Positions 20,469 through 63,822 of a stretch of 64,000 bases of DNA are shown here, piece by piece. The position numbers and the translations under genes are program-made. Position 1 is the first letter of the stretch, and each line of letters starts with the position of its first letter. The stretch spans positions 241,110 through 305,109 of the forward strand of contig NZ_CP123991.1 in NCBI RefSeq assembly GCF_029919255.1. The letters are read 5' to 3'. Source of the stretch: a cyanobacterium endosymbiont of Epithemia clementina EcSB (GTDB lineage Bacteria; Cyanobacteriota; Cyanobacteriia; Cyanobacteriales; Microcystaceae). The notes beneath the pieces were generated by a model. That model did not search any database and had not been told where the DNA came from. It worked only from the letters and a program-made list of their open reading frames with translations.

Positions 20469-21544
20469 AGTTGTTTATGTCTGTGACTAATGCACTTGTT
20501 CAAAATTACAGATTCTATAATACTTCTATTAGGTGAAGTTGTGGAAGATCATGGGAGATAAATGTCGGACTTAGAATGTCTTAAATCGCTCAAGACAGGG
20601 AGTTTAGGATTGATCACTTTTACGGAAATTACTAGATAGTCAGGATAATTAATTACTTTTTTCTTAAATTAGACTCCTTAAAATTTTTAATAGTGAAGTT
20701 AAAATTGCCAATCACTTTGTTGAGTAAATTTTCGTATGTTATTACTTACTGTTACATTATTTGCTTCAATAACAATTCTTATCTCAAAGATTAGATAGTT
20801 ATAGCTTTTAAGTTAGTTTAGAAATTAATTCTCGTAAAAATGTCTGCAAATTTGATTAAACTGAGTTTAATCAAATTTGTTAGCAATCAAGAGTATTCTT
20901 TAAATTTATAATTACTCGTTTTTATCTTAATTTTACTTCTTATCATTCAGTAATTATATTTTTTACTTAATTTTCAAGATTGATTCGATTGAAAACTATA
21001 GACTTTTTAAAATCTTCTTAACTAGAAGATGAAATAATTTAAAATTTTTTATAATTTAACTAAACTACATCAACAGAGGATAACGCATTTCTAACAGTTT
21101 TACTATCATGAAGATTAACCACTTATTCTTCTTCAGAAGAAAAGACTCTCGTACTTAATATATCAATTATCATTGATATATTAACATTATTTTTCTCATT
21201 GTATTTTATGACAGTTTCACCCAATCTTTAATCCCTTTAAATTTCTATCCTATTGGATTTAAATATAAAATTATTGCTCTTTTTCTTGTTATGGAAAGAA
21301 TTTTTAGGTTGCAGTTCGAATCTGAAAGTTCTCGCTTTTCTAATTATGTTAGCTGAACTTTGAGACAAGCTAATATCTAGAAACTACTTTTTTTTAACTA
21401 TTTTTCTATTTTAGACTTATTTAAGTCTATCTACTTAATATTTATGGAACCAATTTTTTAAAAGTCTTCGTAGTACACAAATGAGACACACTCATTAGTT
21501 TGTCCTAAAATACACGAAAAATCTTGCTGAGTTATGAGCAAGAT
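20469..21544. other. 1.1-kb intergenic region
   Basis: No gene is seen. The part next to 20469 must contain the petN promoter. A perfect 13-bp inverted repeat (21155-21184) and the terminator of the downstream DUF4168 gene are the only structures noticed. Confidence 0.5.
21155..21184. repeat. Inverted repeat, 13-bp arms
   Basis: TTAATATATCAAT (21155-21167) and ATTGATATATTAA (21172-21184) are perfectly complementary around TATC. It is AT-only apart from one G/C pair and lies in a gene-free stretch, so no function is evident. Confidence 0.6.
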
Positions 21545-49630: not shown

Positions 49631-49891
49631 TTAAACTAAATAAGTAATTAATTTAAATACAGGTTCTCAAAAATACTTGAGTAATCTAGTGGATTCTAAG
49701 AATAGAAGATTAACTTATATAAAATTTTCGAAAAATCGCTAATTACATTCTCTATAAATCTAATTTTTAGGTAAGGTTCATCTTATTCTACTACAATAGG
49801 TAGTAGGATAGGAGCGTTTGTCTAATGAGAGTAAATTTTCTCTTAGTGTAGTTAAATTTCAAGAGTATCAGAGTTACAATACTTCGAGATT

Positions 49892-49946
49892 GACATATTA
49901 TGTTATCTACATGACATAATATGTCATGTAGATAACATAATATGTC
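49892..49946. repeat. 55-bp perfect palindrome
   Basis: Two 27-base arms are perfect reverse complements around a single central A at 49919. The left arm begins GACATATTATGTTATCTACA and the right arm ends with its complement. GACATA/TATGTC motifs also occur within each arm, so shorter hairpins nest inside. No gene abuts it; the nearest is the Deg protease start at 50122. Confidence 0.95.
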
Positions 49947-50121
49947 ATGTATTCATGATACTCTACATGGCAGATTACGTCAGTATCAGGTTACATTTTA
50001 TAAGATAGCTTTTTATATAACGGACTGGTAAACCAACTTTTTCTCTCCATGACTATTTCAATTTCAAACTATTTTAATCTCAAACTGTTTTAATCTCAAA
50101 TTATTCAGGGCAAAATCCGTA

Positions 50122-57828: not shown

Positions 57829-58962
<1,134 letters not shown>

Positions 58963-59135
58963 TTAGTCTAATGGCGTATTGACACATTCACACAATAGCA
59001 AACTATGTACTTGAATGCTATACCCAGAAGACTGTTTGTAAATATAGAATCAAATATAATCCGTTAGGCAAACTTTCGTCGCTTTCTATAAACTGAATTA
59101 ATTTGTCATGCTGTAACACTCTTTTTATAGAAAAA

Positions 59136-59173
59136 TTTTAGAGTATACTAGTGCGCACTAGTATACTCTAAAA
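59136..59173. repeat. 38-bp perfect palindrome without loop
   Basis: TTTTAGAGTATACTAGTGC (59136-59154) is followed directly by its exact reverse complement (59155-59173). It lies between nagZ (stop at 59218, - strand) and the alcohol dehydrogenase start (58938). On the - strand it ends with a TTTTA-like tail and could serve as the nagZ terminator. Confidence 0.9.
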
Positions 59174-59217
59174 TCAAAGTAAGACTTACTTTATAAACAT
59201 TTTCTAACAGTTATTAA

Positions 59218-60840
59218 CTAGAGAAAATTATCCTCTGAATTACAAGAAACTTCTGACAAACCAAATAACGTCTTACAGGATATCTCCTGGCCTTTTGCCA
59301 TTTGTCCGTAAGAAAATACCCAAGGTAAATCATCCTTCAATACTTTAGTTTCACGAAGAAACCAATCCTTAACATAAGGACTTCCATAAATTATTAATCC
59401 CTTAACTATCTTGTACTTTAATAATTTTTTATAAATCTTCTGTGCTCTATCAGTTAATCCTGCATTTCCTCGAAATGGATTTCCCCTAACAAATATTTGT
59501 AATAGAGTGTTGCGATTGTCCTCTAAAACAAAACTGAGGGTATTTTTATCTACCAACTGCAAATTGTACCCCATCTGTTTAGGAATAGTGACAGCAGGAG
59601 TCTGGCGATCTAAAAAATCACAATTAAGAATATCATCTACCACGATTAAATTACGTCGTTTATATTTTTTCTTTAGAGGTAAATTACCTCCCTTCTCACT
59701 CGAATATTGGAGAATATGAACAACCGTTTGTTTGGCTCTAGGTTGAGATAATTGATTTAGAGAAGATAAAAGCTGACTTTCAGGGGAACAAATGGTAGTC
59801 GATACTTTTTGTTTAGCATGCCAAATTCGAGCTAGAGAAGCTTCTATTCTCTCATGGGTAATGCGTCCTGACTCAACCGCTTGGTAAACTGCCTCAATGG
59901 TTTTTTCGGGATCGTGAGGCATTAATAAAATATCAGCCCCCGCCTCTACTGCCATCACCGCCACTTCTTCAGAAGTAGCATAATTAGTTACTCCTCCCAT
60001 TACCAAAGCATCGGTAACAATTAAGCCTTCAAAACCCAACTTTTCTCGTAATTGACCTGTTAAAATCTTGTTAGATAAGGTTGCAGGTTTTTGTTCATCC
60101 CAAGCCCGAATTAACAAGTGGGCCGTCATCACACTATCGACACCAGCCTCTATTGCTTTTTTAAAGGGGACTAATTCCACCTCAGCTAGTCGACACATTT
60201 TATGGGGTATAACCGGTAAGTCTAGATGAGAATCAGTGCTAGTATCTCCGTGGCCTGGAAAATGTTTAGTAGTAGTTAGAACGTTGTAGGTTTTAGCCCC
60301 GTCTATAAACGCCGTTGCTAAGTGACTAACAATCTCAGGATCATTACTAAAAGACCTGATATTGATTACCGGATTTTCCGGGTTATTATTAACATCAACT
60401 ATAGGGGCTAATATCCAATTAATCCCGATGGCGAGAGCTTCTTGGGCAGTAATTACCCCCATTTGGGTTGCATATTCAATTGCTTGACCTAAATCTTGTT
60501 TAGCAATAGCTCCCAAGGCCATTGGCGGAGGAAACCAGGTCGCCCCAGAAAATCGCTGTCCTACCCCCTCTTCAGTGTCAGCAGCCACTAACAGAGGAGT
60601 CTTTGACCACTGTTGTAGCTGTTTAGTTCTTAGGGCTAATTCAGCTCCAGTTCCCCCCAATAAGATAACGCCTCCTAAATTTAAGGTTTGTAGCCAATGG
60701 CGTAATTTAGCATTAGGGGCTTCCCAAGTAGGGAAACGAATTTGCTGATCGAACAAGTGGCCAGAGGCACGAACCACTACCATTTGTCCAATTTGTTGTT
60801 TGAGAGTTTCGTTAATCAAATGGAATGATGAGTTAGTCAC
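59218..60840 (-). CDS. nagZ: GH3 beta-N-acetylhexosaminidase (NagZ-like)
   Basis: Glycoside hydrolase family 3 enzyme likely removing N-acetylglucosamine from muropeptides in cell-wall recycling. The catalytic barrel (about 15-350) shows the NagZ signature KHFPGHGDTSTDSHLDLP, with the mobile catalytic His/Asp loop, and the nucleophile region LIVTDALVMGGV. At 540 residues it is much longer than the ~340 of E. coli NagZ; the extra C-terminal ~165 residues (about 375-540) form a second alpha/beta domain as in larger GH3 members. It begins 20 bases after rbfA, so the two form an operon. Confidence 0.88.
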   Translation of the reverse strand: MTNSSFHLINETLKQQIGQMVVVRASGHLFDQQIRFPTWEAPNAKLRHWLQTLNLGGVILLGGTGAELALRTKQLQQWSKTPLLVAADTEEGVGQRFSGATWFPPPMALGAIAKQDLGQAIEYATQMGVITAQEALAIGINWILAPIVDVNNNPENPVINIRSFSNDPEIVSHLATAFIDGAKTYNVLTTTKHFPGHGDTSTDSHLDLPVIPHKMCRLAEVELVPFKKAIEAGVDSVMTAHLLIRAWDEQKPATLSNKILTGQLREKLGFEGLIVTDALVMGGVTNYATSEEVAVMAVEAGADILLMPHDPEKTIEAVYQAVESGRITHERIEASLARIWHAKQKVSTTICSPESQLLSSLNQLSQPRAKQTVVHILQYSSEKGGNLPLKKKYKRRNLIVVDDILNCDFLDRQTPAVTIPKQMGYNLQLVDKNTLSFVLEDNRNTLLQIFVRGNPFRGNAGLTDRAQKIYKKLLKYKIVKGLIIYGSPYVKDWFLRETKVLKDDLPWVFSYGQMAKGQEISCKTLFGLSEVSCNSEDNFL

Positions 60841-62281: not shown

Positions 62282-62301
62282 CATTTTCTCTAGAGAAAAT
62301 G
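62282..62301. repeat. 20-bp perfect palindrome
   Basis: CATTTTCTCT and AGAGAAAATG (62282-62301) are exact complements without loop, between the acsF stop (62323) and the hisA start. It probably marks the acsF transcript end. Confidence 0.6.
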
Positions 62302-62322: not shown

Positions 62323-63402
62323 TTAATGAACTGTTCCTCGTAGGGCTTCTGCATCGATAGGTTTTAGTAAATAAATTCGTAATAAATCACCAAAAATTCC
62401 GGCAATTAACGGTAATTGACTTAAAAATTTCACAATTTTCGGGACGTTACTTTCTCCAATTTCTTTTATCTTTAAATTACGCTTAGAACATCGTTGTAAA
62501 CGAGGATAAAATTCAGGACTATCTACATCAAGAATACTGGGAAATGCCCTTGCTGATGTTTGATTTGTTTTACGGATTACTTCTTGATCAAATTCTGTAG
62601 CGTTTAACCCTAAAGATTCATAAAAACTAGCTCTTTCATGAACGGTTAAAGTGTGGGTAGCAAAGACAGATAAGAGGAAAAAGCGGCTCCATAATCTAGA
62701 TTGCCAAGTGTTCCAAAGTTTAGGTTGAGAACGTAATAAGGCAGTAAAAATATCTCCGTGACGATTTTCGTCTTGACACCAGTTTTCAAACTTTTTAAAA
62801 ATAGGATAGAATAGCTTTTCTGGATGTTTTTCTAGATGATTAAAAATAATAATATAACGCCAATACCCGATTTTTTCAGAGAGATAGACTGTGTAAATTA
62901 CCCATTCTAATGGAAAAAATGTATAGGTACGGGTTTTAGTGATTCTTCCTAGATCCAGAGATAAGTTAAAGTCCGCCATTGCCTTATTCAAAAATCCCGC
63001 ATGACGGGCTTCGTCACGCGCCATCAAGTGGAATATTTCTGATAAAATTGGATTGCGACCTCTCAATTTTCTAGAAAGTTCTTTGAACAAAAGAAACCCG
63101 GAAAATTCTGAAATACAAGACCGTTCAAGATATTCAATAAATCCTTTTTTCACAGTTTCATCTAAATGATCCCAAGAACCTGTATTGAATTCTTCATCAC
63201 GGACAAAGTGGTGGCGATTGTAGTCTTTTCTCATCTCTGTCAACATCGCGTTTAATTCTATCTCTTGTTCGGTCAAAGAAAGATTAGCAGCGGCTTCAAA
63301 ATCTGTTGTGTAAAAACGTGGGGTGAGAAGAGTTTCTTGAATAGGGGCTTTAGTTGTTGATTCGACTTGTGTTGGAGTGACTTGATCTAGTGTGTTAACC
63401 AT
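62323..63402 (-). CDS. acsF: Mg-protoporphyrin IX monomethyl ester oxidative cyclase
   Basis: Di-iron oxygenase that forms the fifth ring of chlorophyll, using O2. The 359-residue protein is full length (AcsF/ChlA). Iron-binding carboxylate/His motifs are visible in DEARHAGFLN (about 131-140) and DENRHGDIF (about 211-219), with a first Glu in LERSCISEFSGFLLFKEL (about 93-110). Several membrane-facing aromatic segments (FFPLEWVIYTVYLSEKIGYW) are typical. The frame is undamaged, so chlorophyll synthesis was still selected recently. The ATG lies inside a 46-base palindrome (63399-63444). Confidence 0.95.
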   Translation of the reverse strand: MVNTLDQVTPTQVESTTKAPIQETLLTPRFYTTDFEAAANLSLTEQEIELNAMLTEMRKDYNRHHFVRDEEFNTGSWDHLDETVKKGFIEYLERSCISEFSGFLLFKELSRKLRGRNPILSEIFHLMARDEARHAGFLNKAMADFNLSLDLGRITKTRTYTFFPLEWVIYTVYLSEKIGYWRYIIIFNHLEKHPEKLFYPIFKKFENWCQDENRHGDIFTALLRSQPKLWNTWQSRLWSRFFLLSVFATHTLTVHERASFYESLGLNATEFDQEVIRKTNQTSARAFPSILDVDSPEFYPRLQRCSKRNLKIKEIGESNVPKIVKFLSQLPLIAGIFGDLLRIYLLKPIDAEALRGTVH

Positions 63403-63444
63403 AGTATTTTTATATAACCGAATAGTTATATAAAAATACTATGG
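63399..63444. repeat. Palindrome over the acsF start codon, 20-bp arms
   Basis: CCATAGTATTTTTATATAAC (63399-63418) and its exact complement (63425-63444) flank a 6-base loop. The left arm contains the acsF ATG (63400-63402 on the - strand). In the acsF mRNA leader the start codon could be locked in this stem. Confidence 0.9.
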
Positions 63445-63822
63445 CTAAGGATACTTCCTTGGCTAGGGGGTGTTCTTCAACTGTTACGGAATGCTGATAT
63501 TTAGATCCATCTTCAATTTTGTAAGCAAATAAAATTGATTCATATTGAGTTTAAACTCAATATGAATGACTAGTTAAACCAGAAAACTATTTTTATTTTT
63601 TATTGAATTTAAAAGCATTAATCCATCTATATTGGCCTATCTTAATAAATTAAGAACTAGGTTTGATAAAAGTCACAAAAACCAGTTTAACGTATTCGTT
63701 GATTTCATCCGTTTAGGTGAAGCAGATATTTTGTTGTTTGTTTTATCCTTTTAGGAGTGGAAATAGATTATTTTTAGTGTGAAATTGAGGATGAAATAAC
63801 CCTGTACACCCCTTACATCTTC
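63403..63822. other. Divergent upstream region with palindromes
   Basis: Lies between acsF (-) and the partial + gene. It contains most of the start-codon palindrome and a second, loopless 30-bp palindrome at 63538-63567. No gene is seen. Confidence 0.5.
63538..63567. repeat. 30-bp perfect palindrome without loop
   Basis: ATTCATATTGAGTTT (63538-63552) is followed directly by AAACTCAATATGAAT (63553-63567), its exact complement. It lies about 140 bases upstream of acsF and 255 bases upstream of the next + gene, so it could be an operator or simply a local inversion product. Confidence 0.85.

Follow-up and report, generated by a model that had tools for sequence, protein, structure and literature searches.

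How did a perfect, loopless palindrome come to lie in the spacer downstream of an intact nagZ-like gene, and does it serve a function there? In the window, the 64-kb stretch of DNA analysed here, the palindrome occupies 59135–59174 and consists of ATTTTAGAGTATACTAGTGC followed directly, with no spacer, by its inverse complement (40 bp, arms of 20, no loop; no strand is assigned to this or the other palindromes). The initial annotation, which had described it as loopless with perfect 19-bp arms at 59136–59173, was accurate, and the repeat extends one base further on each side. It lies 43 bp past the stop codon of the gene for a nagZ-like β-N-acetylhexosaminidase (59218–60840, minus strand), the 3′ end of which points towards it, and is flanked on the side opposite nagZ by an intact S-(hydroxymethyl)glutathione dehydrogenase (class III alcohol dehydrogenase) gene (57829–58938, minus strand).

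The window is part of a single contig of 3,072,807 bp (G000) that very probably comes from a diatom spheroid body (diazoplast). Among the genomes compared, its nearest relative is the cyanobacterial endosymbiont of Rhopalodia gibberula (G005; NZ_AP018341.1; 3,020,309 bp), the NagZ of which is 92% identical; the comparison also included two further reduced genomes of the same genus (G002 and G003), two larger genomes taken as free-living (G001 and G006), and one (G013) that we take to be UCYN-A. Gene order in G000 and G005 is collinear over the first 1.25 Mb and inverted across much of the remainder, a pattern that a single large inversion, or a few of them, after the split could produce. In the orthologous spacers of G005 and G002, which are of equal length, the palindrome is absent. 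The strong fold of the 59135–59174 hairpin (−23.5 kcal/mol), so placed behind a stop codon, speaks for a transcription terminator or another selected RNA hairpin, but the G005 counterpart folds with −2.1 kcal/mol, i.e. the hairpin is not kept.

The palindrome is not alone in the window, and three of the four companions named in the initial annotation are real; the fourth, at 62282–62301, is only 20 bp long (arms of 10) and weak by itself. The longest, at 49891–49947 (57 bp, arms of 28, 1-nt loop), has orthologues in G005 and G002 that are within 5 bp of its length and contain no such palindrome. Inside it lies a second, nested palindrome with the core ATGACATAATATGTCAT, and this nesting suggests that two fold-back events may have occurred in succession. 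The palindrome at 63399–63444 (arms of 20, 6-nt loop) lies upstream of acsF, encoding Mg-protoporphyrin IX monomethyl ester cyclase (62323–63402, minus strand), the 5′ end of which touches it, and is common to the R. gibberula endosymbiont (counterpart L058 3053–3096). Between the two species the loop is exactly inverted, CGAATA versus TATTCG, which might reflect repeated flipping, and both arms differ by an identical one-base indel; the loop inversion adjoins an otherwise conserved acsF 5′ region. At 63538–63567 (30 bp, arms of 15, no loop) the arms have identities of 0.87 and 0.67 to the orthologue. A further palindrome at 20847–20879 (33 bp, arms of 16, 1-nt loop) was absent from the initial annotation, as were some shorter ones. 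The window is no hot spot: it contains four palindromes with arms of at least 16 bp in 64 kb, compared with a genome-wide mean of 10.5 per 100 kb.

That mean derives from a census of 864 kb (28%) of the genome, comprising the window and 40 stretches of 20 kb each. Perfect inverted repeats with arms of at least 16 bp and a loop of at most 10 nt number 91 in this sample versus 0.0 in third-order Markov sequence; with arms of at least 12 bp there are 149 versus an expectation of 2.2. Extrapolation from the 864 kb gives an estimate of about 300–320 palindromes with arms of at least 16 bp genome-wide. The other diazoplasts are similarly rich (G005 7.5, G002 13.3 and G003 10.8 per 100 kb, beside 10.5 in G000) and the UCYN-A genomes have 5.0 and 2.5 per 100 kb. 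The low group comprises the free-living G006 (0.6 per 100 kb), G001, G015 and G018 (0.0 each), and Escherichia coli (0.0 in 100 kb); additional free-living genomes have 0–1.2 per 100 kb, and 79 named loci of other, presumably free-living cyanobacteria have 1.4 per 100 kb, several of these matches containing recognisable motifs or being GC-rich. The excess implied in the initial annotation over both random sequence and free-living relatives is thus present (91 versus 0.0, and 0–0.6 per 100 kb in the closest free-living genomes). An excess of short inverted repeats over expectation is known in prokaryotes and endosymbionts, with endosymbionts such as Buchnera ranking top for 6–30 bp repeats, but very short repeats are part of those counts, which track low GC, whereas for the arms of at least 16 bp considered here the chance expectation is essentially zero (PMC4060949, PMC10434271). 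Within the literature searched, the density of template-switch palindromes in these endosymbionts appears to be unreported; the spheroid-body genome papers, as far as searched, make no mention of palindromes or inverted repeats.

REP and MITE families also consist of intergenic palindromes of similar size, but they are copies of a few sequences, whereas the palindromes described here are nearly all unique (PMC3733652). Only two pairs among 127 share a 12-mer, and few short matches occur elsewhere in the sample, excluding an origin as a repeat family and bearing out the earlier observation that the palindromes are mutually unrelated and not copies of one element. In two places in the same genome, L043:4600–7000 and L050:7800–9460, several unrelated palindromes are clustered within 1–3 kb.

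The palindromes are nearly absent from intact ORFs: in G000 there are 22 per 100 kb outside ORFs of at least 100 aa versus 0.2 inside. Within the spacers they are no closer to ORF ends than random positions (455 bp versus 416 bp) and are dense in spacers longer than 2.5 kb, and their arms are AT-rich (21% GC versus 29% for spacers). The distances to ORF ends, the density in long spacers and the AT-rich arms argue against terminators or other selected RNA hairpins; although flanking T-runs are slightly commoner than at random (24% versus 16%), we consider such a function very improbable for the palindromes as a class.

To follow the origin of the palindromes, orthologous sites were compared across overlapping stretches of four diazoplasts. 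This gave 44 comparisons in which the flanks align and the other species is without a comparable perfect repeat, the orthologue standing in for the ancestor; polarity rests on this substitution. In all 44 the inverted repeat is closer to perfect than its counterpart in the orthologue. Length is within 5 bp at 38 of the 44 sites, and none of the orthologues is shorter by 10–40 bp, which excludes an added inverted duplicate as the usual route and indicates that an arm was replaced. The initial annotation had proposed local inverted duplications; as added DNA these do not account for the length-neutral sites, where one arm was overwritten.

Because gapped alignment inflates identity, arm identities were judged against an empirical null of 1,101 random non-coding sites, measured identically, and against a simulated overwrite. 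The better arm is as similar to the orthologue as the null (0.81 versus 0.83, not significant), whereas the worse arm is more diverged (0.657 versus 0.718, p = 0.001); arm asymmetry also exceeds the null (0.153 versus 0.116, p = 0.007). Simulated complete overwriting lowers arm identity to 0.50, compared with 0.657 observed and 0.718 for unchanged sequence; the observed worse arm lies above the overwrite value, so the typical event would perfect a weak, bulged match or build a palindrome stepwise. Some single cases are clear: at L041:19513–19554 compared with G005 L064, the right arm retains 100% identity whereas the left has been rewritten, and L048:14096–14150 versus L070 and L060:6113–6150 versus L037 are further examples. 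When folded, the orthologous segments had a median rank of 0.49 against random spacers of the same genome, most of them being no better, and a strong quasi-palindrome precursor was seen in few cases only (those orthologous to the L040, L056 and L086 palindromes). Ungapped complementarity was only slightly raised (0.478 versus 0.440, p = 0.008).

Palindromes common to two species differ symmetrically, e.g. A:T versus G:C in L038/L061 and C:G versus T:A in L160/L086. Loops are short, with about 20 repeats per nt of loop length at 0–4 nt, 3 at 13–20 nt, and at most 0.4 beyond 20 nt. Symbiont genomes are sometimes amplified prior to sequencing, and fold-back chimeras formed during amplification or assembly might be thought to produce palindromes of this kind. 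Such artefacts would hit intact ORFs, add length, and show no symmetric differences between species, and four separate genomes agree; we therefore regard an artefactual origin as scarcely credible.

The palindromes are probably scars of quasi-palindrome template switching and not functional elements, abundant through frequent origin, relaxed selection, or both. In the proposed mechanism, a short inverted match, itself imperfect, would let the growing strand fold back while DNA is being replicated or a gap filled, and the polymerase would copy 15–30 nt of the nascent strand itself, or alternatively of the sister strand, before rejoining the template in register. One arm would thereby be overwritten by the exact inverse complement of the other, with net length constant, in one step or several. 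The same reaction could later homogenise the arms of existing palindromes, and loop inversion would be possible. Products would come to fill the non-coding DNA of this diazoplast and its sisters, either by arising often, or by escaping removal from decaying spacers and pseudogenes, or both. Strand switching at replication, as the initial annotation had it, remains the best reading, given the length neutrality, arm asymmetry, symmetric changes, loop inversion and short loops, although the replicative nature of the event is inferred. The weak folding of most orthologues, their only slightly raised complementarity and the intermediate identity of the worse arm count against this reading. Template switching is a known process, and as the mutational mechanism here it is well supported.

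Template switching in E. coli shows a strand bias relative to fork direction. In E. coli, yeast and RNA genes, the process is recognised by the use of one arm as template, arm homogenisation and loop inversion (PMC7202029, PMC8604942, PMC8794818). The palindromes of the diazoplasts resemble the E. coli and yeast mutations in that arm is copied from arm, in their perfect arms and short loops, and in homogenisation and loop inversion (PMC7202029, PMC3820800, PMC8604942), but those are known from reporters or hotspots and as short repeats, whereas here a single genome is estimated to contain ~300 long perfect palindromes, the precursors of which are often weak. Similarly, in comparisons between related genomes, of great apes or of RNA genes, one inverted local copy explains clusters of changes, compensatory pairs and loop inversions (PMC7954356, PMC8794818); in contrast to those switches, the ones inferred here occur throughout endosymbiont non-coding DNA and have perfect arms of 16–38 bp.

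Why the palindromes are so abundant is a separate question from how they form. Switching might proceed at an ordinary rate, with small populations and large decaying spacers retaining palindromes that free-living cells purge. The 0.2 per 100 kb in ORFs of at least 100 aa versus 22 outside indicates that selection acts on the sites of survival, UCYN-A, an independent host-bound lineage, likewise has a raised density, and short inverted repeats are known to be in ordinary excess throughout the prokaryotes (PMC4060949). Sequence outside ORFs of at least 100 aa makes up 40–50% of the diazoplast sequence. Counted per 100 kb of such non-ORF sequence, however, the diazoplasts still have 15–28 palindromes and UCYN-A 16.6 (6–36), the latter being weaker evidence because some UCYN-A palindromes resemble GC-rich terminators, versus 1.9 in the sampled relatives, 0–7 in individual free-living genomes, where intervals are wide, and 6.7 (4.1–10.3) in the 79 named loci, several of whose palindromes are recognisable repeat families or GC-rich terminators. 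Non-ORF gaps longer than 600 bp contain 135 palindromes in 623 kb in the diazoplasts versus 1 in 190 kb in the free-living genomes, the few palindromes of which occupy short gaps; this comparison also tells against retention alone, but is indecisive, free-living neutral DNA being scarce. Relaxed selection in decaying DNA is thus a strong competing or additional cause, and we put its chances only a little short of even.

The alternative is a raised rate of switching, and the initial annotation had envisaged a change in replication or repair, including nuclease loss. The expected nuclease losses are absent: tolerance of palindromes through loss of SbcCD is excluded, as all 22 genomes searched carry intact sbcC and sbcD, and RecJ (two homologues), MutS, PolA and RecG, when sought in the diazoplasts, were all intact. 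No match to RNase HII (PF01351), DnaA (TIGR00362) or the ExoVII large subunit (TIGR00237) was found in the four diazoplasts, G000 included, or in either UCYN-A genome, but each is also missing from some free-living genomes with no visible excess, leaving a specific repair defect as only a candidate. Loss of ExoVII (XseA) is not a sufficient cause, since it is also absent in the free-living G006, G008, G011 and G018.

Loss of DnaA and of a fixed origin could lead to many origins and recombination-dependent starts and hence to more switching at forks. Close free-living relatives have dnaA, which all the diazoplasts and UCYN-A lack, and across the 41 sampled stretches of G000 the chromosome lacks any consistent GC skew, a pattern expected of a replicon without a fixed DnaA-dependent origin. 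However, the free-living, dnaA-less G034, G035 and G038 of the same order have only one palindrome with arms of at least 16 bp in 240 kb; these controls exclude DnaA loss as a sufficient cause, and a contribution from it seems distinctly improbable. More widely, an order-wide survey of 294 near-complete genomes found 44 with no DnaA match; many of these appear to be free-living and belong to several families.

Among the three losses, that of RNase HII is the most suggestive of a cause. Leftover ribonucleotides or RNA:DNA hybrids might stall synthesis and provoke quasi-palindrome switching, as in yeast without RNase H2, the loss of which leads to mutations that perfect imperfect inverted repeats (PMC3820800). 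RNase HII is present in every sampled free-living member of the family, and its absence in all these endosymbionts has been independently reported (PMC12903740). Yet the yeast effect was observed only at high transcription, the symbionts are reported to have RNase HI (PMC12903740), and the free-living G038 and G058, also without RNase HII, have 0 and 1 palindromes in 80 kb each, a weak test with 18 kb of non-ORF sequence apiece. We regard a rate raised by RNase HII loss as a possible but doubtful explanation. The broader proposal, that diazoplasts and UCYN-A, two lineages evolving towards nitrogen-fixing organelles, each lost RNase HII independently and that fold-back switching was thereby raised, rewriting their non-coding DNA into perfect palindromes, is an unlikely one. 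RNase HII loss and DnaA loss are at most candidate causes of the excess. Relaxed selection and RNase HII loss both concern the excess and not the mechanism, and are compatible with template switching.

Template switching is usually viewed as a source of rare single events, whereas in these endosymbionts it would be a frequent and visible source of multi-base change in spacers, and closely related diazoplast genomes allow each switching event to be read. Perfect hairpins and compensatory changes in such genomes are accordingly no proof of a functional RNA. The diazoplasts provide a natural test of what controls template switching, be it RNase HII, origin-less replication or drift.
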